A DNA stretch of 64,000 bases from NCBI GenBank assembly GCA_028289425.1, contig JANQPL010000009.1, positions 1-64,000 of the forward strand, read 5' to 3'. The notes beneath the pieces were generated by a model, which was not told the origin of the DNA, made no database searches, and worked only from the letters and a program-made list of their open reading frames with translations. Made by a program: the position numbers and the translations under genes. The DNA is from Alphaproteobacteria bacterium. GTDB taxonomy: Bacteria > Pseudomonadota > Alphaproteobacteria > JANQMY01. Within the stretch, counting starts at the first letter, position 1; the number at the start of each line of letters is the position of its first letter. Below, piece after piece: positions 1 to 16,465 of this stretch.

Positions 1-267
1 GAATCAATTCTGTTTGCGGTCCGGCGGCCGATCCGCCAGGAGAACGGCGAAGAGCGATGTGGGGCATCGGTCGAGCCGTTCGACGCAGCGGGCGGCCGCC
101 GGGCGCAAACCCGAAGGGCCGGGCCGTCTTGCGCCATGACCGGCGCCGTCCGGCTTGACCGTACCCCCAGTATGGCCTGCGCCGGACAGCTTGGTCCTGA
201 CGCAAAACGACCTCGGCAGAATGGTTCCATTTCACCGTCCGACGCTCTAATCCCGGAATTCATCATT
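1..267. other. left-edge region, no gene called
   Basis: I see no recognisable gene here. The frame that runs into the SDR gene is open from base 1, but its translation is rich in Arg, Gly and Pro and looks like GC-rich non-coding sequence. A small hairpin (GGCGG / CCGCC, about 23-37) and a GAATC site at bases 1-5 are the only structures seen. The end of a gene lying mostly left of the window cannot be excluded. Confidence 0.4.
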
Positions 268-6716: not shown

Positions 6717-7618
6717 GGGGCGGCCCCGGTATGGGGATAGGCCCCTTGGGGCGATTTAAGCCAGGCTTCGGCGCAGCCCCGCGCCAGCGCGCGGACGCGG
6801 CCGATATAGCTTGCCCGTTCGGTCACGCTGATCACGCCGCGCGCATCCAGCAGATTGAACAGGTGGCTTGCCTTCACGCAATGATCATAGGCCGGCAGCG
6901 CCAAATCCTCTTTCAAGAGGTTGTCGCAAATCGCTTCACTGTCCGCAAACTGACGAAACAGCACATCCGTATCGGCATGTTCGAAATTGTAGGCGGAGAA
7001 TTCGCGCTCGGACTGATGGTATACTTCGCCATATTTGACACCGGCGCCGTTGAAATCCAGATCGTACACATTGTCCACGCCCTGCACATACATGGCGAGC
7101 CGCTCCAGGCCATAGGTCAATTCGCCCGCCACCGGATTGCAGTCGAAACCGCCCACCTGCTGAAAGTACGTAAACTGACTAACTTCCATGCCGTCGCACC
7201 AGACTTCCCAGCCAAGCCCCCAGGCGCCAAGGGTCGGGCTTTCCCAATCGTCTTCCACAAACCGAATGTCATGGAGCCCCATATCGATGCCAAGCTCCGC
7301 CAAACTGCCCAGATACAGATCCTGTATGTCGATGGGAGACGGCTTCAGAATGACTTGGAATTGATAGTAATGCTGCAGCCGGTTGGGGTTCTCCCCGTAA
7401 CGCCCATCGGTCGGCCGGCGCGACGGCTGCACATAGGCCGCCTTCCAAGGGTTGGGCCCCAGCGCCCGCAAAACGGTCGCCGGATGAAACGTGCCCGCCC
7501 CCATTTCCAGATCATAAGGCTGCAGGATCACACAGCCCCGATCCGCCCAATAATGCTGCAGGGTTAGAATCAAATCTTGAAAGGAACGTGCGCCCTCGGA
7601 TGCGTTTGGGCCGGTCAT
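6713..7618 (-). CDS. glyQ: glycine--tRNA ligase alpha subunit
   Basis: Catalytic class II synthetase chain (301 aa, E. coli 303). Diagnostic stretches are [28 protein letters not shown] and [20 protein letters not shown], which make up the class II core that binds ATP and glycine. It lies 91 bp after the S49 peptidase gene and is coupled to glyS by a 4-bp overlap, so sohB-like, glyQ and glyS probably form one transcript. Confidence 0.97.
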
Positions 7619-7709
7619 CTAACGTGCTTTCGAAGGGTTCAAAGAATCAGGCGGCGGCTGGAAATGCGCGGCGAAACCTAACGGCGGGACTGGGAAGGGT
7701 CAAGCAGCG

Positions 7710-8591
7710 CTACAAGCCGAAACGCGACCAGAAGGCCCGCACTTCCAAGGCCGCCAGCATGTCGTCGGCCCAGCCATTGGGAAAGCTGAAACCGCCGCCA
7801 GCGCCGCGCCGTCCGCCCGACGAGTGAGCCGCCATGCGGTTACGCCACCACGACCGCTCGCTGGAAATCACCTTTAAGCGCACATCGTCGCCATAGCGTT
7901 TGCGCATCTCCGTACGCAGATCGCTCAGCCCATCGATCAGGCCCAGCTTCTCTGCTTGGATGCCGCTCCAAAACTCTCCCGAAAACAGCCGCTTCTCCGC
8001 CCCATGAAGTTTTCCTTCGCGGCGCGTTTTCACCAAACCCCGAAACGCCCCGTGCACTTCCTTCTGCAGCACCATCAGCCGCTTGACGTCTTCCTCGTCC
8101 ACCGGCTGGAACGGGTCGAGCATGGATTTCTTTTCGCCGGACGTGTAGACGCGGCGGTCGACACCGACCTTCTTCATCAGCTCGGTGAAGCCAAAGCCTG
8201 CGGACACCACACCGATAGAGCCCACGATCGAACTTTCATCCGCGAAGATCTGGTCGCCGGCGCAGGCCAGCATGTAGCCGCCTGACGCCGCCACATCTTC
8301 GGCAAAGGCAAAGACCGGCACGTTCTTTTCTTCGGCCAACTGACGAATCCGGTTGTGGATAAGCGTCGCCTGCACGGGCGACCCGCCCGGCGAATTGATC
8401 GACAGCGCCACGGCTTTCACGCCATGCTCTGAAAAGGCGGACTCAATGGCACTCGCAAGCCCGGCCAAATTGAGCCCTTGGCCGAACCGGGCCGCGGGCC
8501 CGATAACCCCGTTCAAGGGCAGCACCGTCACCACCGCCGGCGACTTGCCCAACAAGCCGAACGGCACCCATCTGCGAAGTCTTCTGATCAT
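7710..8591 (-). CDS. S49 family peptidase (SppA/SohB-like)
   Basis: Serine peptidase of family S49 (293 aa), expected to cut signal peptides or membrane protein fragments. The short single-domain form fits SohB/SppA-type enzymes in alphaproteobacteria. Motifs seen are the oxyanion region INSPGGSPVQA (about 65-75), catalytic Ser103 in AASGGYML, GSIGV (125-129), and the partner lysine around 155 in YTSGEKKS. There is no clear signal peptide, only a basic, weakly hydrophobic N-terminus. It lies 69 bp after the TrmN6-like gene, on the same strand. Confidence 0.9.
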   Translation of the reverse strand: MIRRLRRWVPFGLLGKSPAVVTVLPLNGVIGPAARFGQGLNLAGLASAIESAFSEHGVKAVALSINSPGGSPVQATLIHNRIRQLAEEKNVPVFAFAEDVAASGGYMLACAGDQIFADESSIVGSIGVVSAGFGFTELMKKVGVDRRVYTSGEKKSMLDPFQPVDEEDVKRLMVLQKEVHGAFRGLVKTRREGKLHGAEKRLFSGEFWSGIQAEKLGLIDGLSDLRTEMRKRYGDDVRLKVISSERSWWRNRMAAHSSGGRRGAGGGFSFPNGWADDMLAALEVRAFWSRFGL

Positions 8592-8660
8592 ACCCTTACT
8601 ATGTAGACGCGCGCCTGCGCGGCCTCAAGGGCCGTGGCGGCAATGAATGGCTTTATTCTG

Positions 8661-9413
8661 TCAGCTTAGAGTTAAGGATTTGCCGTGCCTTAAGACATCT
8701 TCGGCCCGCTTGCTGAAGCCGCCATCCTCTGCGTGAAGAACGAGCCCGGCCTCCAGCACCGTCGGGCCGCGGGCGCCCTTTTTGCCTTGCACAATAAAGC
8801 GCTTCGCCCGCTGACTCTGATGGGGCCACAGCGGAAAAATAACAATGTCACCCAAATGGCCCTCCAGATGGGCCAGCACGGTTGTGAGATTGGCCGTCGG
8901 ATAGACCATCGTGAACAATCCGCCCGGCCGCAGCATACGGATGCTTCGCGAGAGCCAGTCCCCTAGAAATCCATCAGGCCCCGCATGAGCCGCCGCCTTG
9001 TCGTGGTTGGATGACATTTGGACCGCCCCGTCCTGATAGAAGGGGGGGTTGGTGACCACATGATCGAAACTGTTGGGCTCCGGCGATAGGGCGGCCTCGA
9101 ACAGGTCGATCTGAACCGGTTCAACGCTTTCCACGAGACCATTCCGGTCAATGTTCTTCACCAAGAGCTCAAAGTGCTCGTTGATCTTCTCAAGCGCGGT
9201 CACGCGAACGCCCGCGACCCGTTTGGCCAGCAGAAGGGAAATCACCCCGACCCCAGCTCCCACATCCAACACGGTCGCGTCAGGCAGCGCCGGCACCGCG
9301 GCCGCGGCCATCACCGAATCCACACCCGCCCGAAAACCTTTGGCCGGCTGTAAAAGCCGTACCTGTCCGCCAATGAACTCGTCGTCGGTTGTATCAGTCA
9401 CGAGTAAAGCCAC
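8661..9413 (-). CDS. tRNA1(Val) adenine-N6 methyltransferase-like protein
   Basis: Class I SAM-dependent methyltransferase of the COG4123/TrmN6 group (250 aa). Motif I is VLDVGAGVGVISLLLA (about 50-65), and the N6-adenine motif IV is TNPPFYQDG (about 125-133). The family methylates A37 of tRNA-Val; that exact substrate is inferred from the family. The N-terminus DEFIGGQVRLLQPAKGFRAG is typical. It follows the DUF2007 gene by 42 bp, a pairing common in alphaproteobacteria. Confidence 0.87.
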   Translation of the reverse strand: MALLVTDTTDDEFIGGQVRLLQPAKGFRAGVDSVMAAAAVPALPDATVLDVGAGVGVISLLLAKRVAGVRVTALEKINEHFELLVKNIDRNGLVESVEPVQIDLFEAALSPEPNSFDHVVTNPPFYQDGAVQMSSNHDKAAAHAGPDGFLGDWLSRSIRMLRPGGLFTMVYPTANLTTVLAHLEGHLGDIVIFPLWPHQSQRAKRFIVQGKKGARGPTVLEAGLVLHAEDGGFSKRAEDVLRHGKSLTLS

Positions 9414-9455
9414 TCATGCGTTGAGGACGGGTGTTGGGGGGGCGGACGTTCATCA

Positions 9456-9671
9456 TCACGTGCTTGTGCCAATCTGGGAATCGTTCAGCAAAACCTTGGC
9501 CCGCTCATAGTCCGTGTCCGGCACCATGAGCCGCCGTTGGATCGCGTTCACGCTTCCTTCGACCATGCTTGTGTGCGCATCGAGCACGACGGAGTCGATG
9601 CCTGCGTCGCTCAACAAAGCTTCCGCAAACGAAATCAACACCAGATCGTTGGTCCTGACGACCTCCCGCAT
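9456..9671 (-). CDS. DUF2007 domain protein
   Basis: Small 71-residue protein matching the DUF2007 (putative signal-transducing) family: MREVVRTNDLVLISFAEALL, then a short beta-strand region and VPDTDYERAKVLL. No catalytic residues are evident and the function is unknown. It is the first gene of the leftward series into the TrmN6-like gene and S49 peptidase, and is divergent from the polyprenyl synthase gene. Confidence 0.85.
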   Translation of the reverse strand: MREVVRTNDLVLISFAEALLSDAGIDSVVLDAHTSMVEGSVNAIQRRLMVPDTDYERAKVLLNDSQIGTST

Positions 9672-9763
9672 AAGCCCCTATATGTGCGATGCCGCCCCTC
9701 TCTCGCCCCGCCGACAATTTTGCGTTACTGTACCAAAAACCGAGGCAAATAAGGGATAAGCGG

Positions 9764-9793
9764 CACTGGGTCGCACTTGACCCAAAAACAGTG
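9764..9793. repeat. nested inverted repeat in the DUF2007 / polyprenyl synthase divergent promoter
   Basis: TGGGTC (9767-9772) pairs with GACCCA (9779-9784), and an outer CACTG (9764) pairs with CAGTG (9789-9793). It lies about 50-75 bp before the polyprenyl synthase start. It may be a 5' hairpin or an operator. Confidence 0.35.
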
Positions 9794-9840
9794 GCGCCCC
9801 TACTTTCCTTCACGGACATACGACATAAAGGGCTTAAAAC

Positions 9841-10860
9841 GTGGGCGCCGTTATTTCATTTAACCAGGAAACAAGCCCATTTGGAAATTCGGTCGAGCGT
9901 CTTGTGAATTTGGTGTCCGGTGATCTGGACGCCGTAAACACTGTCATCCTCGATCGCATGAAAAGCCCCGTGGAGATGATCCCCACTTTGGCGGGTCATT
10001 TGATTTCCTCCGGCGGCAAACGATTACGGCCATTGCTCACCCTGTCCACCGCACGCATGCTTGACGTGGAAAACGATCATCACATCAAGCTGGCCGCCGC
10101 CGTGGAGTTTATTCATACCGCCACGCTGCTCCACGACGATGTGATTGACGAAAGCGTGTTGCGCCGCGGTCAGGCCAGCGCGAATGTGCTGTGGGGAAAC
10201 AAATCAAGCGTTCTTGTGGGCGACTTTTTGTTCAGCCGTTCTTTCCGGCTGATGGTGGAAGTGGGCTCCTTCAAAGTATTGGATATTTTGTCGAACGCTG
10301 CGGCCGTCATCGCCGAAGGCGAAGTGATGCAGCTTTCGACCGCGAAAGACACGGCGACCTCTGAAGAAGACTACATGGCCGTCATCGAAGCCAAGACGGC
10401 TGCTTTGTTTGCCGCCGCTGCACGCTCTGGCGGCATCGCCGCGGGCGCAAGCCCCGACCAAGAAGAAGCGCTTGATCAGTTTGGCCGGAATTTGGGCATC
10501 GCGTTTCAGCTTGTGGACGATGCGCTCGACTATTCCGGACGGCAAGCGACCCTTGGCAAAACGGTGGGCGATGATTTCCGGGACGGCAAGATCACCTTGC
10601 CCGTCGTGCTCGCCTATCGTCGGGGTACGGATGAAGAACGCGTGTTCTGGCAACGCACTTTGGAAGAAGGCCGCCAGGATGAAGGCGATTTGCGCCAGGC
10701 AACGCGCCTCATGGAGAAATACAACACCATTTCCGACACGATCGACCGGGCAAGCAATTTCGGTCAGCAGGCGCGGGACGCATTGACCAAACTGCCGGAA
10801 GGGCCGATCAACAAAACCCTGAGCGAAGTGATCGACTTCTGCATCAGCCGGGCGTATTAG
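9841..10860 (+). CDS. ispB: polyprenyl (octa/decaprenyl) diphosphate synthase
   Basis: Long-chain trans-prenyltransferase (339 aa) that makes the side chain of ubiquinone from farnesyl/geranylgeranyl-PP and IPP. The first aspartate-rich motif is LLHDDVIDE (Asp99, Asp100, Asp103) and the second LVDDALDY (Asp226, Asp227, Asp230). GGKRLRPLL near 58-66 binds IPP. The start is GTG at 9841 with AAAGGG seven bases upstream. Product chain length cannot be read from sequence; a C50 (Q-10) chain would be usual for the class. The symbol is given by family; it could equally be named ddsA/sdsA. Confidence 0.92.
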   Translation: MGAVISFNQETSPFGNSVERLVNLVSGDLDAVNTVILDRMKSPVEMIPTLAGHLISSGGKRLRPLLTLSTARMLDVENDHHIKLAAAVEFIHTATLLHDDVIDESVLRRGQASANVLWGNKSSVLVGDFLFSRSFRLMVEVGSFKVLDILSNAAAVIAEGEVMQLSTAKDTATSEEDYMAVIEAKTAALFAAAARSGGIAAGASPDQEEALDQFGRNLGIAFQLVDDALDYSGRQATLGKTVGDDFRDGKITLPVVLAYRRGTDEERVFWQRTLEEGRQDEGDLRQATRLMEKYNTISDTIDRASNFGQQARDALTKLPEGPINKTLSEVIDFCISRAY

Positions 10861-10895
10861 CCCCTCCAGAACACCCGATGTGGTGACGGGACGAA

Positions 10896-10948
10896 GATCA
10901 AAAGGGTCAGACCCTATTGAAATTCAATAGGGTCTGACCCTTTTGATC
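10896..10948. repeat. perfect 26-bp inverted repeat (REP/MITE-like) between convergent genes
   Basis: Two 26-bp arms (10896-10921 and 10923-10948) are exact reverse complements around one A at 10922. The core is GGGTCAGACCC on each side. This type of GGGTCAGACCC palindrome is known from repeats linked to REP-associated Y1 transposases. It lies between the ends of the polyprenyl synthase and glycosyltransferase genes and contains the latter's last ten codons and stop. It may also work as a two-way terminator. Confidence 0.75.
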
Positions 10949-11996
10949 GGGCCGCTGCCGACAAGGACCGCATGCGCTGATGCACAAACAGCGCGTGACC
11001 CAGCATGGCGATGATCACAGCACCCACCAACAGGACACGCATGAGCGGGGTTGAGGCCTGAATAGCAAATGCCGCGACTCCGCACGCGATGAAGTAAGCA
11101 AAATACAGCTTGCTCACTTGGGCGTGGGTCCAGCCGCTTTGATGCAGCAGCTGGTAGAGATGCTCCCGATGCGCTTGGCTTAGATTCTTGCCCCGCCACG
11201 CCCGGCGCGCGAGCGTGTACAGCACATCGAAAATGAACGGCAGGAACAAGATCGGCACCACAAAAATCGAAACGCCGCCAAATCCGTCAGTGGACGCCAG
11301 CACGGCAAGCGAGGCGAACGAAAAGCCCAAAAACTGGCTGCCCGTATCCCCCATGAAGATCCGCCCGCTTGGAAAGTTGAAATAGAAGAAGCCGCCTGTG
11401 GCACAGACCAGCACAACGCTCGACAAGTAAACGAAGGGGGCGTTCGCAAAGAACGATATGGCGCCCAGGAATACGCCGCTGATCATCGCAGCGCCCGCCG
11501 CAATGCCGTTGATACCATCCATGAAGTTGAACGCATTCATAAAAAACACGATCCACAAAACGGTCAGCAACGCGCCCAGCGGACCCAACTCGACAGTGCC
11601 GACGAAAGGTATCCAGATCTTGTGAATGCTCGCCACAAAACTTGCGAACAGCACGGCCGCAATGAACTGGGCGACAAACTTTTGCAAAGGGCTGATGTCG
11701 TAGAGATCGTCGATGAACGACGAGACAAGCAAGGCGAAGACAATCAGTACAAAGACAAGGAATTGGAACTCCGGCAGTCTGACCACATCGGCGAACAGAT
11801 AAAGTATGCCGATCCCCAACGTGAAAGAGACGGCAATTGCGATGCCGCCGCTTTTCGGCGTTTCTTTCTCATGGCTCGACCGGTCATTGGGGACATCCTT
11901 GATATTGAGATCCATGATCCAGCGCGTGAGCCCCGCCGACAGCAGCAACACCAGCAGCCCAAAGCTCACATGCTGTAGAGCGGCAAAGCTGTTCAT
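10914..11996 (-). CDS. WecA/MraY-family undecaprenyl-phosphate sugar-1-phosphate transferase
   Basis: Integral membrane enzyme (360 aa, about ten hydrophobic segments) that moves a sugar-1-phosphate from a UDP-sugar, often GlcNAc, to undecaprenyl phosphate for surface polysaccharides. Family signs are DVPNDRSSHEKETPKSGG (about 34-51), the Asp pair in SFIDDLYDIS, NFMDGINGIAAG, FMGDTGSQFLGF and a cytoplasmic HREHLYQLL loop. The ATG at 11996 overlaps the ispE stop as ATGA, so it is translationally coupled to ispE; a longer frame upstream lies inside ispE. The final residues SKGSDPIEFQ and the stop codon come from the palindromic repeat at 10896-10948, so the native C-terminus was probably replaced or extended by that insertion. 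Confidence 0.88.
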   Translation of the reverse strand: MNSFAALQHVSFGLLVLLLSAGLTRWIMDLNIKDVPNDRSSHEKETPKSGGIAIAVSFTLGIGILYLFADVVRLPEFQFLVFVLIVFALLVSSFIDDLYDISPLQKFVAQFIAAVLFASFVASIHKIWIPFVGTVELGPLGALLTVLWIVFFMNAFNFMDGINGIAAGAAMISGVFLGAISFFANAPFVYLSSVVLVCATGGFFYFNFPSGRIFMGDTGSQFLGFSFASLAVLASTDGFGGVSIFVVPILFLPFIFDVLYTLARRAWRGKNLSQAHREHLYQLLHQSGWTHAQVSKLYFAYFIACGVAAFAIQASTPLMRVLLVGAVIIAMLGHALFVHQRMRSLSAAARSKGSDPIEFQ

Positions 11997-12922
11997 GGCG
12001 CACCGGGCTCCAAAGGCAGCGGTGAGATCTCCGGCGGCTCCTTGAGCACACGACCGTTGGCAATCCACCAGGCCGGATGCTGGGAGCGCAATTGCTCTGC
12101 TGCGGCGGCTGCATCGCTTTGAGTCAGGAAGAGGCCGAAACAGGTTGCCCCACTTCCGGACATGCGGGCCAGCGCACAGCTGGGTAATGCCCCCATCGCC
12201 GTGATCACGTCTTGAATGATGGGCTCGCAGTCGATCGCCGGCGCCTCCAGGCTGTTGCCGTAACGCTCAAGCATCCCAATCAAGACATCGAAGGAACGGA
12301 CGGCACCAATCGTTTCCACCGGCGGCGCAAAACCGGCAAGCCGCTTGAAGATCGGACCCGTGGCAACACCAATCCCCGGATTAGCCAAGACCAGCGCCAT
12401 ATCGGGCAGCGTGTCGATGGGTGTGAGCACCTCGCCAATGCCTCGCGCAAGGGCCGGCCGCGCCCCGTAGCACATGGGCACGTCCGCCCCTAAGTCCACA
12501 AGCAGCGCATCCCGTTCTTCTAGGGTGTAACCTACTGTCCAGATCTCTTCCAAAAGCCGGATGGCGCTCGCCGCGTCCGACGACCCGCCCCCAATCCCGG
12601 AGGCCACAGGTAATTCCTTCGTTAGGTGAAATTCTGCACCGGATGCCGAGCCCGAATGGGCTTGCACCGCGCGCGCGGCACGAATGATCAGATTCTCGGC
12701 CGTATCGGTATTCAGGATCTGCGACTGGGGCCCGTCGATGTGGAGGCTCAGCCCCTCCCCCGGTCGAACGGCCAGCCGGTCTCCAATGTCGGCGAAGACA
12801 ATCAGACTGTCGAGGGTATGGTACCCGTCGTCTCGCTTTCCCGTCACATGAAGGAAGAGATTGATTTTAGCGGGCGCCAGAAGACCAAACGATCCGTTGC
12901 CCCCCTGTGACACGTCTTGCAT
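11993..12922 (-). CDS. ispE: 4-diphosphocytidyl-2-C-methyl-D-erythritol kinase
   Basis: GHMP kinase of the MEP isoprenoid pathway (309 aa), acting in the cytosol. Motifs are APAKINLFLHV with GKRDDGYH at the N-terminus, the ATP-binding PVASGIGGGSSDAAS (family P-x3-GLGGGSSDAA), and the C-terminal MSGSGATCFGLF. It lies 15 bp after the TPR lipoprotein gene and overlaps the sugar-phosphate transferase by 4 bp. IspH of the same pathway is encoded at about 40 kb in this window. Confidence 0.95.
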   Translation of the reverse strand: MQDVSQGGNGSFGLLAPAKINLFLHVTGKRDDGYHTLDSLIVFADIGDRLAVRPGEGLSLHIDGPQSQILNTDTAENLIIRAARAVQAHSGSASGAEFHLTKELPVASGIGGGSSDAASAIRLLEEIWTVGYTLEERDALLVDLGADVPMCYGARPALARGIGEVLTPIDTLPDMALVLANPGIGVATGPIFKRLAGFAPPVETIGAVRSFDVLIGMLERYGNSLEAPAIDCEPIIQDVITAMGALPSCALARMSGSGATCFGLFLTQSDAAAAAEQLRSQHPAWWIANGRVLKEPPEISPLPLEPGAP

Positions 12923-12937
12923 GTATCCGTTTCGCGT

Positions 12938-14755
12938 TCAGAGAACGGGTGCCGGCGGACGTTCGGCCTTTTGCATGTGACGGCTGTGCGATCCCCGCAT
13001 ACCCCGATCAAGCTTGTTCTCGATGAGCGGTACCTGATCGTCTTCCGGATCAAGGCCCAAGGCCCGCTGCCATTGGAAGCGCGCCTCTATCTCGCGCCCA
13101 ACCTTCCAATACGCATCACCCAAATGGTCATTGATGACCGGATCTTCAGGCCGCAAGCTCACCGCCTGTTCCAGATGCTCCACGGCAAGCTCGTATTGAC
13201 CCAGCTGGTAATGGGCCCAGCCCAAACTGTCGACGATGTAGCCGTCATTGGGCCGCAATTCCACAGCCAGCCGGATCATCTCCAGCGCTTCATCCAAGTT
13301 TTGACGCTGCTCGACCCAGGAATAGCCCAGATAGTTCAAGACCAACGGCTGATCGGGCTCCAGCTCCAGCGCGAATTTGAAATCCCGTTCCGCATCCTCC
13401 CACCGGCCGGACCGCTCATAGGCGATGCCGCGGGCATAGAACAGCGACCAATGGCGCCGCTGCGGGTCGCCCGCGAGATTGATCGCCTGCGCATACACCT
13501 CGGCGGATTCGTCATAATCCTTCCGGCTGCGGAGCAAATCACCCAACGCCACCACCGCGTCCATATCGTTGGGGCGGCGCTGCGTGACCTTGCGCAGGAA
13601 CCGAACCGCGTCATCGCCGCGCTCCAGACGCTCAAGATTAAACGCGATCTGCAGCTGGGCATGGCTGTAGATTCCCGAATCCGAGGGCACACGGGCATAC
13701 ACATCCGCTGCCTCTTCCCAGCGGCCAACCGCTTCCATCAAGTCGGCCAGCAGCAGCAAGGCCACGTCGAAATCGTCCCGCATATAAAGGGTAAGCTGCA
13801 AATAGACGAAGGGCAGATCGATGCTGCGGTCTCGGGCAAGGGCGCTTGCAAGACCGTACAAGACTTCCGCCGCCCCGTAATTCGCATCCGGCACCATCAA
13901 GCCGGGCATGACGTTTTCGTCAATACGGCGCAGCGCCACTTCGACCAGCGGATGATTGGGGGCGGCCCGCGCAAAGTCTGCATAAAGAGCAATGGCGTCG
14001 TCTTTCCGCCCCTGTCGCTCGAGGAATTGCCCATAGGCCTGCACGGCACGGATCGAATTGGACCCGCCTGAGTCAAGCGTCGCTTGAAAATCGCGATCCG
14101 CCGCCTCGACCCGGCCGGCCTGTTCATTGATCAGCGCACGGTGATAAAACCGGAAAATATCGAAGGCGGGGTTTGAATTGAAATTGTCGATGAGCTCCAA
14201 CGCCACATCCACATCGCCTTCGGCGCGGTGCGCCCAGGCGGTCAGCAAGGTCGACGCCAAGCTGCTGAACGGACCGTCGGCAGAACGTTCAAAATTATAC
14301 CGTGCACGGGCATAATCACCGTCCCGGTACTCGGACAACCCGATAATCAGATGCGGGAAGTTCTTGTCCGGCGTCCGGCGAATAATCTCGCGGGCGCGAC
14401 CCGTCGCCTCTTCCACCTGGCCGTCGGCCAATTGCAGAAGAAAGGCCCGGTCCAAAATGACTTCATTGTCGGGATCGCGCGCAAGGGCGCTTGCATAGTA
14501 ATCCGCGGCACTTGCCGTGTCGCGCACGGCCCCCGCATGGCGCGCGGCTAGATAATTGCCGAAAAGGGAATTCTTCGACCGGGTGCGTTCTTGCCCCGTG
14601 AGACCTTCGAACGTCCGTGTCAAATCGCCCGCCGACGAGCATGCCGCCAATACCGCAACACACGCTAATACGCCGGCTTTACGAATTGTCTTAATCACTC
14701 GAAACCGTTCTATGTCGCCAAAAAACCGCAGGAATTGCGAACCCCACAGGGCCAT
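12938..14755 (-). CDS. TPR-repeat lipoprotein
   Basis: 605 residues: a signal peptide ending in the lipobox VLAAC (Cys about 39), then tetratricopeptide helices across nearly the whole protein. The C-terminal part contains clear TPR units (DAERDFKFALELEPDQPLVL, then LNYLGYSW and YELAVEHLEQAVSLRP). It is probably an outer- or inner-membrane-anchored scaffold in the periplasm; no partner is evident. The start is uncertain: the ATG at 14755 leaves a long n-region, while a GTG at 14698 gives a tidy VIKTIRKAGVLACVAVLAAC signal. It sits between ETF-QO and ispE on the same strand, a gene order often kept in alphaproteobacteria. Confidence 0.85.
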   Translation of the reverse strand: MALWGSQFLRFFGDIERFRVIKTIRKAGVLACVAVLAACSSAGDLTRTFEGLTGQERTRSKNSLFGNYLAARHAGAVRDTASAADYYASALARDPDNEVILDRAFLLQLADGQVEEATGRAREIIRRTPDKNFPHLIIGLSEYRDGDYARARYNFERSADGPFSSLASTLLTAWAHRAEGDVDVALELIDNFNSNPAFDIFRFYHRALINEQAGRVEAADRDFQATLDSGGSNSIRAVQAYGQFLERQGRKDDAIALYADFARAAPNHPLVEVALRRIDENVMPGLMVPDANYGAAEVLYGLASALARDRSIDLPFVYLQLTLYMRDDFDVALLLLADLMEAVGRWEEAADVYARVPSDSGIYSHAQLQIAFNLERLERGDDAVRFLRKVTQRRPNDMDAVVALGDLLRSRKDYDESAEVYAQAINLAGDPQRRHWSLFYARGIAYERSGRWEDAERDFKFALELEPDQPLVLNYLGYSWVEQRQNLDEALEMIRLAVELRPNDGYIVDSLGWAHYQLGQYELAVEHLEQAVSLRPEDPVINDHLGDAYWKVGREIEARFQWQRALGLDPEDDQVPLIENKLDRGMRGSHSRHMQKAERPPAPVL

Positions 14756-14794
14756 ACGCTACTCGATCACAATGAGTTTAAGAACTTCTTCATA

Positions 14795-16465
14795 TCACAT
14801 ATTCGGGTAATTGGGGCCGCCGCCCCCTTCAGGAACGGTCCAGTTGATGTTCTGCGTGGGATCTTTGATGTCGCAGGTTTTGCAGTGGACGCAGTTTTGC
14901 GCATTGATGACGAATTTCGGTCCGCCGCCATTCTCGTCCTCGACAACTTCGTAAACGCCGGCCGGGCAGTATCTTTGGGCGGGCTCGTCAAAGGATGGCA
15001 GATTGTACTGGATGGGAACCGACTCATCCGACAACCGCAAATGGATGGGCTGATCCTCTTCGTGGTTCGTGTTCGACAAAAACACGGAAGAGAGTTTGTC
15101 GAACGAGATCTTCCCGTCAGGCTTGGGATAGTCGATGGGCTTTACGTTCGACGCTTTGACCAGAGTTTCATGATCGGCCTTGCCGTGTTTCATAGTCACC
15201 GGCAGCCCGATGCCCAAATTGTTCATCCAGAGATCGATGCCGCCCAATCCAAAGCCCAGCATGGTGCCGAACTTGCTCCACAAGGGCTTCATGTTCCGAA
15301 CCCGCTTCAGGTCGGTGAAAATGCTGGAGCCGCGATACCCTTCTTCATAGGCGGTGATTTCGTCGTAGGCACGGCCCGCGGCGATGGCATCGCACACGGC
15401 GTCCGCCGCCAGCATGCCCGACTTCATGGCGTTATGACTGCCCTTGATGCGCGGCAGGTTGACGAATCCGGCCGAACACCCGATCAGCGCACCGCCCGGG
15501 AACGTCAGTTTCGGAACGGACTGAAAGCCGCCTTCGGTGATGGCCCGAGCGCCATAGGAAATCCGTTTGCCCCCTTCGAAATAGTGCCGGACAGACGGAT
15601 GTGTCTTGAAACGCTGGAATTCATCGAAGGGCGACACGTAAGGGTTTTTGTAGTTCAGGTGAACCACGAAACCCACCGCCACCATATTGTCTTCCAGGTG
15701 ATACATGAATGACCCGCCGCCGGTGCTGTTGGCGAGCGGCCATCCCATGGTGTGCACCACCAGGCCGGGCTTGTGCTGGGCGGGATCGATCTCCCATAAT
15801 TCCTTCAAACCAATGCCGTATTTTTGCGGCTCGCTTTTGGCGTCGAGCGAAAACTTCGAAACGAGCGTTTTGGTCAGCGATCCACGCGCCCCTTCCGCAA
15901 TCAGCGTGTATTTGGCGTGCAACTCCATGCCGGGCGTGTACGTATCTTTTTGCTGGCCGTCGCGACCGATGCCCAGATCGCCGGTGGCGACACCTTTCAC
16001 GCTGCCGTCGTCATTGTAGACGATCTCCGACACCGCAAAACCGGGATAGACCTCCACCCCCAGCTCTTCGGCCTGTGTGGACAGCCAGCGGCAAACATTC
16101 CCCAGGCTGACGATATAGTTGCCGTGATTGTTCATGAGCGGCGGTATGATGAAATTCGGGATACGGATCGAACCGGCCGCCCCTAAGAACAAAAACCGGT
16201 CATCGGTCACCGCTGTGTTGAGCGGCGCGCCTTTTTCTTTCCAATCGGGAATGAGTTCATTAAGCGCGATGGGGTCGATCACGGCGCCGGATAAAATGTG
16301 GGCGCCCACTTCGGATCCCTTTTCCAGCACGGCGACATTCAGCTCGGTGCCTGCTTCGGCTGCGCGCTGCTTCAGCCGGATCGCTGCCGACAAGCCCGCC
16401 GGTCCTGCACCAACGATGACGACGTCATACTCCATCGACTCGCGTTCAACTGTTGCCTCAGACAT
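14795..16465 (-). CDS. electron-transfer flavoprotein-ubiquinone oxidoreductase
   Basis: Passes electrons from ETF (fatty-acid and amino-acid dehydrogenases) to ubiquinone at the inner membrane. The 556-residue length is standard. The N-terminus has the FAD-binding VIVGAGPAGLSAAIRL (about 16-31). The C-terminus has the 4Fe-4S set in RYCPAGVYE and NAQNCVHCKTCDIKDP, followed by the conserved TQNINWTVPEGGGGP. The quinone-binding membrane region around PGGALIGCSAGFVN is intact. It is the first gene of a leftward run (ETF-QO, TPR, ispE, glycosyltransferase), divergent from the uracil-DNA glycosylase. Confidence 0.97.
   Translation of the reverse strand: MSEATVERESMEYDVVIVGAGPAGLSAAIRLKQRAAEAGTELNVAVLEKGSEVGAHILSGAVIDPIALNELIPDWKEKGAPLNTAVTDDRFLFLGAAGSIRIPNFIIPPLMNNHGNYIVSLGNVCRWLSTQAEELGVEVYPGFAVSEIVYNDDGSVKGVATGDLGIGRDGQQKDTYTPGMELHAKYTLIAEGARGSLTKTLVSKFSLDAKSEPQKYGIGLKELWEIDPAQHKPGLVVHTMGWPLANSTGGGSFMYHLEDNMVAVGFVVHLNYKNPYVSPFDEFQRFKTHPSVRHYFEGGKRISYGARAITEGGFQSVPKLTFPGGALIGCSAGFVNLPRIKGSHNAMKSGMLAADAVCDAIAAGRAYDEITAYEEGYRGSSIFTDLKRVRNMKPLWSKFGTMLGFGLGGIDLWMNNLGIGLPVTMKHGKADHETLVKASNVKPIDYPKPDGKISFDKLSSVFLSNTNHEEDQPIHLRLSDESVPIQYNLPSFDEPAQRYCPAGVYEVVEDENGGGPKFVINAQNCVHCKTCDIKDPTQNINWTVPEGGGGPNYPNM

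Follow-up and report, generated by a model that had tools for sequence, protein, structure and literature searches.

A perfect hairpin that ends a transferase gene at a convergent junction is probably a dimer of a TIR-type mobile repeat

We analyzed a 64-kb stretch of an alphaproteobacterial genome (64,000 nucleotides, here called the window). Between two convergent genes it contains a 53-bp hairpin that appears to be a lineage-specific mobile repeat, because copies of its unit are dispersed, units flank a Y1 transposase gene in a sister species, and the corresponding locus of that species is without the unit. We consider it very probable that the hairpin is a non-autonomous TIR-type inverted dimer, placed by a TIRYT-type Y1 transposase lineage, that rewrote the end of a WecA/MraY-type transferase gene. 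The event is real but largely of a known kind, in which a mobile repeat lands at a gene end and makes a new protein tail. The features are as follows.

9841..10860, plus strand: polyprenyl (octaprenyl-type) diphosphate synthase, the convergent neighbor (polyprenyl_synt, 263 bits)
10857..10859, minus strand: TAA, probable former stop of the transferase (read by eye)
10861..10895, no strand: 35-bp spacer between the synthase stop and the hairpin, probably the former 3' end of the transferase gene, now displaced
10896..10948, no strand: 53-bp perfect inverted repeat, a putative inverted dimer of a TIR-type mobile repeat (inverted-repeat scan)
10898..10920, plus strand: unit 1, TCAAAAGGGTCAGACCCTATTGA (0 mismatches to the unit pattern)
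10914..12002, minus strand: WecA/MraY-type phospho-glycosyltransferase (Pfam Glycos_transf_4, 120 bits; ORF; the sister orthologue is 74% identical and has another tail)
10924..10946, minus strand: unit 2, unit 1 repeated in inverted orientation (0 mismatches to the unit pattern)

The hairpin arms (10896-10921 and 10923-10948) are complementary at 26 of 26 positions around a 1-nt spacer, exactly as an earlier note on this DNA had described. No other perfect inverted repeat in the window has arms of at least 10 and a loop of at most 5, and an iid model puts the chance count of perfect 26-bp arms in 64 kb at about 3e-11. The hairpin consists of two inverted copies of a near-palindromic 23-bp unit, TCAAWAGGGTCWGACCCTWTTGA. 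It includes the last 10 codons and the stop of the transferase gene (SKGSDPIEFQ-stop, stop codon at 10914-10916), and the Arg codon just ahead of them straddles the hairpin edge. The minus-strand ORF thus agrees with the tail that the earlier note had read from the repeat, and the convergent position it reported holds as well, with the synthase ending at 10860 on the plus strand. The best model for the synthase is octaprenyl diphosphate synthase, with a score under the cut-off of that model. An Rfam search of positions 10500-11400 at the gathering score returned no match.

We searched for the unit with the pattern TCAAWAGGGTCWGACCCTWTTGA at up to 3 mismatches, alongside a control pattern. There are 7 places in the window's own genome (G000), two of which are the window dimer, and 9 in the sister species (G001), the only genome of the same genus that we met; the control had 0 in both. 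Among 39 further members of the class, 38 have no match and one has a single 3-mismatch match; the control had one match, in G005. A search of 385 class genomes with an R/Y pattern and 1 mismatch found the unit in three: G000, G001, and G384, a member of another family, which has a related dimer. G000 has 7 places with the shorter core GGGTCWGACCC, 2 of them in the window; those at C3:188127 and C5:4990 show nothing more of the unit and appear to be chance matches, and at C3:308770 half a unit is present. The copy survey shows the unit dispersed both as singles and as dimers, and several other copies lie near gene 3' ends, judged by eye.

An exact-pattern scan of a contig collection found 10 stretches, including two from the sister species, two from Bacillus taeanensis, and one each from a Rhodospirillales MAG, ANGP1 (locus L094), Lentisphaerae, Kiritimatiellae, Ruminococcus, and Faecalicatena. 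Within the retrieved DNA, tblastn located a relative of the transposase only at the sister loci and L094, so the remaining stretches may be convergent or unrelated. The 53-bp dimer had no match in plasmid and phage collections at E<=1. The unit pattern is present in two viral contigs, and no relatives of the sister transposase were found in viral contigs. The Bacillus taeanensis stretches (L091 and L092) have two core copies, and perfect palindromes extend 18-19 bp past the core on each side; their outer arms differ, and they look like terminators or element ends.

One copy in the sister species (G001:C448) ends a small ArsR-family protein (FKRVRPF-stop). In the same contig two units bracket a divergent pair of AHSA1-type and ArsR-type genes (L115:5122-6036), each unit lying at the 3' end of a gene. 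The syntenic site in the window's genome (C17:106408) has one decayed unit and is without the AHSA1-type and ArsR-type genes. The two-unit segment is possibly a cargo segment, or there may have been a deletion between units.

The sister species genome encodes a candidate enzyme. In contig C572 (L027/L032) units flank a gene for a 235 amino acid Y1_Tnp protein (44 bits against a Pfam cut-off of 23) that scores 71.4 bits with the NCBIfam RAYT model, under its cut-off of 80. Y1_Tnp is the only Pfam match of the L027 protein at E<=10, and its C-terminal part has no Pfam match. Ahead of the ATG is CTTTCAAAAGGGTCAGACCCTATTGA-spacer-TCAATAGGGTCTGACCCTTTTGAAAG, an inverted pair oriented as in the window but with a longer spacer, and after the gene is a 41-nt perfect palindrome that takes in the last codons. 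The C572 sequence is also present in the Alphaproteobacteria MAG PL25b_bin.64.

Related transposase genes tend to have similar surroundings. Of 32 related loci, four were without an ORF by motif and two had cut flanks; 18 of the 26 examined have an inverted match of at least 12 nt between upstream and downstream flanks, and eight fall below 12 nt (L094 scored 0). Sixteen of these 18 have GG(G)(G)WSAS, which is looser than the published pattern, and nine have the strict GGGGWSAS. In a transposase tree of 32 rows, the motif GGGTCAGA was sought within 250 bp of each gene. The clade of 12 with the sister enzyme (97/97) has it on at least one side in 9 members and on both sides in 7, whereas the clade of 17 with the own-genome homologue (100/99) has it on at least one side in one member and on both sides in none, with the flanks of three members partly cut. 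Because of this contrast (9/12 versus 1/17), repeat type appears to track enzyme lineage broadly. Two members of the clade of 17 have GGGACAGA on one side. L094 has a unit near a 40% identical enzyme, with GGGTCAGA on one side, and lies on a long branch outside both clades.

In its own genome the repeat is an orphan. We found no close homologue of the sister enzyme, as a cognate for the unit, in G000, which is 99.75% complete. The sole homologue there at E<=1e-30 is 34% identical and is bracketed by a different repeat, GGTGACAGTGCAC. The two Y1_Tnp genes that Pfam predicts in G000 were considered as cognates and rejected, as they are flanked by GGTGACAGTGCAC (L008/L041) and by GGACGGGGTT...AACCCCGTCC (L009), neither of which matches the unit. 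Looking through the genome for other copies and a Y1 (RAYT) transposase, as the earlier note had proposed, thus yielded the seven places and two Y1 genes but no cognate of the unit among them. At L008 (G000:C19:351463) the GGTGACAGTGCAC repeats flank the transposase gene, with an inverted pair after it, and a repeat of this type is also found beside homologues in other families (L047, L057). At L009 (G000:C19:127516) a Y1 transposase above the RAYT-model cut-off lies between the GGACGGGGTT...AACCCCGTCC palindromes, and part of its 5' end is duplicated upstream.

By enzyme clade and motif, the window repeat appears to fit the TIRYT/TIRtron kind. Di Nocera et al. (2013, PMC3733652) described TIRtrons/TIRYTs as RAYT-like genes between TIRs, many of which carry GGGGWSAS; TIR families occur singly and as dimers, and some are self-complementary. 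Most of the TIRYT examples of Di Nocera et al. are placed in subclass 2.1 by Quentin et al. (2018), and transposases of this subclass have a C-terminal HTH-like domain (PMC6006769). The unit has AGGGTCAG, which agrees with GGGGWSAS at 7 of 8 positions, and relatives on plasmids and in other genomes show GGGGTCAG. As in the self-complementary Stenotrophomonas maltophilia TIR family of ORF 1152 (PMC3733652), the window family includes a TIR-flanked Y1 gene and dispersed singles and dimers. It differs in that the cognate enzyme was not found in the window's genome and in having copy-specific complementary flanks; the unit sequence TCAAWAGGGTCWGACCCTWTTGA was also not met in the passages of PMC3733652 compared here. 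Among papers whose text holds GGGTCAGACCC or similar strings, no title concerns such repeats.

The earlier note had likened the repeat to REP-associated Y1 elements. This held insofar as the family is dispersed and tied to a Y1 (RAYT-like) transposase, but the repeat appears to be of the TIRYT/TIRtron type with a GGGGWSAS-like motif and not a GTAG REP. REPIN/BIME dimers of GTAG REPs are similar in that an inverted dimer forms one long hairpin, in the Y1 link, and in often lying between convergent genes (in part PMC3733652); the window repeat is without the GTAG foot, its unit is itself a near-perfect palindrome, and there are only about 7-9 copies. A canonical GTAG-type REP/REPIN mobilized by a classical RAYT would account for the Y1 association, the REPIN-like dimer, and the Y1 genes present in G000. 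We regard it as very improbable, given the GGGGWSAS-like motif, the low copy number (7 places in G000), and the stem foot, which has neither GTAG nor GTGG (the window flanks are GACGAAGATC / GATCGGGCC). Two other known elements also contribute protein sequence. Coxiella QMITE1/2 (PMC5896051) are short mobile elements that likewise supply C-terminal residues at gene 3' ends but are a different element family, and the portion of that report drawn on here has no TIRYT link. Rickettsia palindromic elements (PMC3733652) are likewise palindromic repeats read as protein, but they lie in frame inside genes, whereas the window repeat ends the gene.

The sister locus suggests what the junction was like before the repeat. 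Window positions 6825-10859 and 10978-15888 (about 4.0 and 4.9 kb) align with one G001 contig at 72-73% identity, and the junction between the two alignments is 118 bp in the window versus 40 bp in G001. The 9 kb of G001 syntenic to the window has no unit at up to 3 mismatches. The sister transferase, 74% identical, ends ...VHHTVRFHNRLSETPL-stop, and its stop overlaps the synthase stop. The minus-strand TAA at 10857-10859, beyond the repeat, is in the same place as the sister's transferase stop; read by eye, it is in the transferase frame only if, for example, 51 or 54 bp are absent. We infer that an old tail of about a dozen codons gave way to the repeat, which brought ten codons of its own. 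The tail differs between the two species, in keeping with tolerance at this end of the transferase. G001 is a single sister genome with a fragmented assembly and 10% estimated contamination; the C572 contig probably belongs to it, as the gene beside the transposase aligns to G000 at 83%.

This comparison bears on the age of the repeat and on whether it is mobile DNA at all. The earlier note's recent arrival fits the absence at the syntenic site, but there is one outgroup only, and the repeat may have been lost in G001 rather than gained in the window lineage. The contrary pattern it had named, a single copy with a tail conserved in relatives, is not what we see: other copies exist, and the sister tail is different, shorter, and without the repeat. 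If the repeat were unrelated to mobile DNA, it might be a palindrome bound by a regulator or encode a conserved protein tail; this would be in keeping with the perfect dyad but is hardly credible. The sister tail differs and has no such site, which refutes the conserved tail, and unit copies flank a transposase gene.

We therefore favor a mobile repeat, a dimer of TIR-type units that would be recognized by a TIRYT-type Y1 HUH tyrosine transposase (a RAYT relative). An enzyme of the lineage now in the sister species probably mobilized the dimer and placed it, presumably through single-stranded hairpin DNA, where two convergent genes met with overlapping or nearly overlapping stops. The insertion would have swapped the last transferase codons for SKGSDPIEFQ-stop and set the two stops 53 nt apart, and the new tail was probably neutral. 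Several points count against this reading: no transposase closely matching the sister enzyme was found in G000, the copy number is low with no movement observed, the comparison has a single sister genome, the sister enzyme scores under the RAYT cut-off, eight of the 26 examined transposase genes fall below 12 nt, and L094 lies outside both clades. The sister locus and the window form a before/after pair with a likely transposase lineage, illustrating how a TIRYT-linked repeat may enter a convergent-gene junction and rewrite a protein end. A small TIRYT-type family whose enzyme sits in a sister species makes a useful test case.

The dimer could also have formed in place, if a single unit arrived and replication template switching made the second, inverted unit. 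The one-base spacer of the window dimer and the copy-specific complementary flanks at other copies would suit this, and template switching can create perfect hairpins (PMC8794818). We think it somewhat unlikely, since a pair of these units, inverted in the same orientation and more widely spaced, already stands at the sister transposase gene, and G384 has one like it; dimers thus pre-exist as a form.

The earlier note had also suggested that a terminator would be useful here. The site is convergent and the hairpin is very stable, with an RNA fold of -55.8 kcal/mol (z -8.8) and a single-stranded DNA fold of -28.9 (z -12.6). After the large hairpin comes GGGCC or TTCGTCC rather than a T-run. A loose terminator scan gave three sites versus 0.5 in shuffles; two are mini-hairpins inside the repeat on the minus strand, each with 5 pairs, a 3-nt loop, and a short tail of mixed T/A. 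An intrinsic terminator role is therefore weakly supported at best. The hairpin may block 3' exonucleases. Whatever its origin, selection may have kept it as a bidirectional terminator or mRNA 3'-end stabilizer, in line with its stability, the convergent position, the scan, and the several copies that appear by eye to be near gene 3' ends. We find this unlikely: the sister is without such a hairpin and its two genes overlap at their stops, the scan matches within the repeat are small and on the minus strand only, and the same picture would result from any hairpin repeat that entered a gene end.

Outside TCAA...TTGA, copies differ in their flanks, yet the two flanks of one copy tend to be complementary to each other (such as TCTCACTAA/TTAGTGAGA, GCCTT/AAGGC, and AGTT/AACT). 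Merging three dimers to one row each and dropping two Bacillus rows and one duplicate (L096 of L090) reduced 29 copies to 23. Contiguous complementary extension sums to 66 in these 23, a set that keeps some possibly convergent or unrelated stretches, versus 19.7 with right flanks shuffled among copies (0 of 100,000 shuffles reach it, P<=1e-5). In the 13 copies of G000 and G001 alone it is 38 versus 12.8 (P<=1e-5); counting matches within the first five bases instead gives a weaker signal in this set (36 versus 21.9, P 4e-4). Arm complementarity is weak at the window copy because its extension is just GA/TC, which is common in the family (GATC). Other copies also have little or no extension (0 at G000 C20, G000 C3, and ANGP1 2861; 1 at G001 C186; G384 C455 copies 1-2). 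At three other insertions (G000 C5 and C7, G001 C572) we saw no ancestral arms, as synteny or alignment breaks at the unit.

Either the units prefer palindromic targets or the palindromes grow by template switching. Some REP dimers sit inside palindromes (Di Nocera et al. 2013, PMC3733652), and template switching is a described mechanism for perfect hairpins (PMC8794818). A doubtful idea is that palindromic TIR units seed hairpin growth, with one flank reverse-copied across during or after insertion through transposase-coupled or replication template switching. Each copy would then gain its own arms, and gene ends would acquire custom long hairpins and sometimes new protein tails; if the arms are real growth, the family offers a way to study how perfect hairpins arise.

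The sister species has further repeat structures. In contig C28 (L101 / L118:8594) there is an array of GATCAAAAGG / CCATTGATC whose pieces mirror over about 38 nt on both sides of one unit as a nested palindrome, by eye. Window positions 214-249 are 36 bp that are 97% identical to G001:C572 (L116:6787-6822), and may be one more short dispersed repeat. A further repeat, dispersed and about 63-125 bp long, is present at L121 (about 8949-9022) and in G001; 39 of the 42 matches listed for it lie in G001, from 40 of 111 candidates scored.
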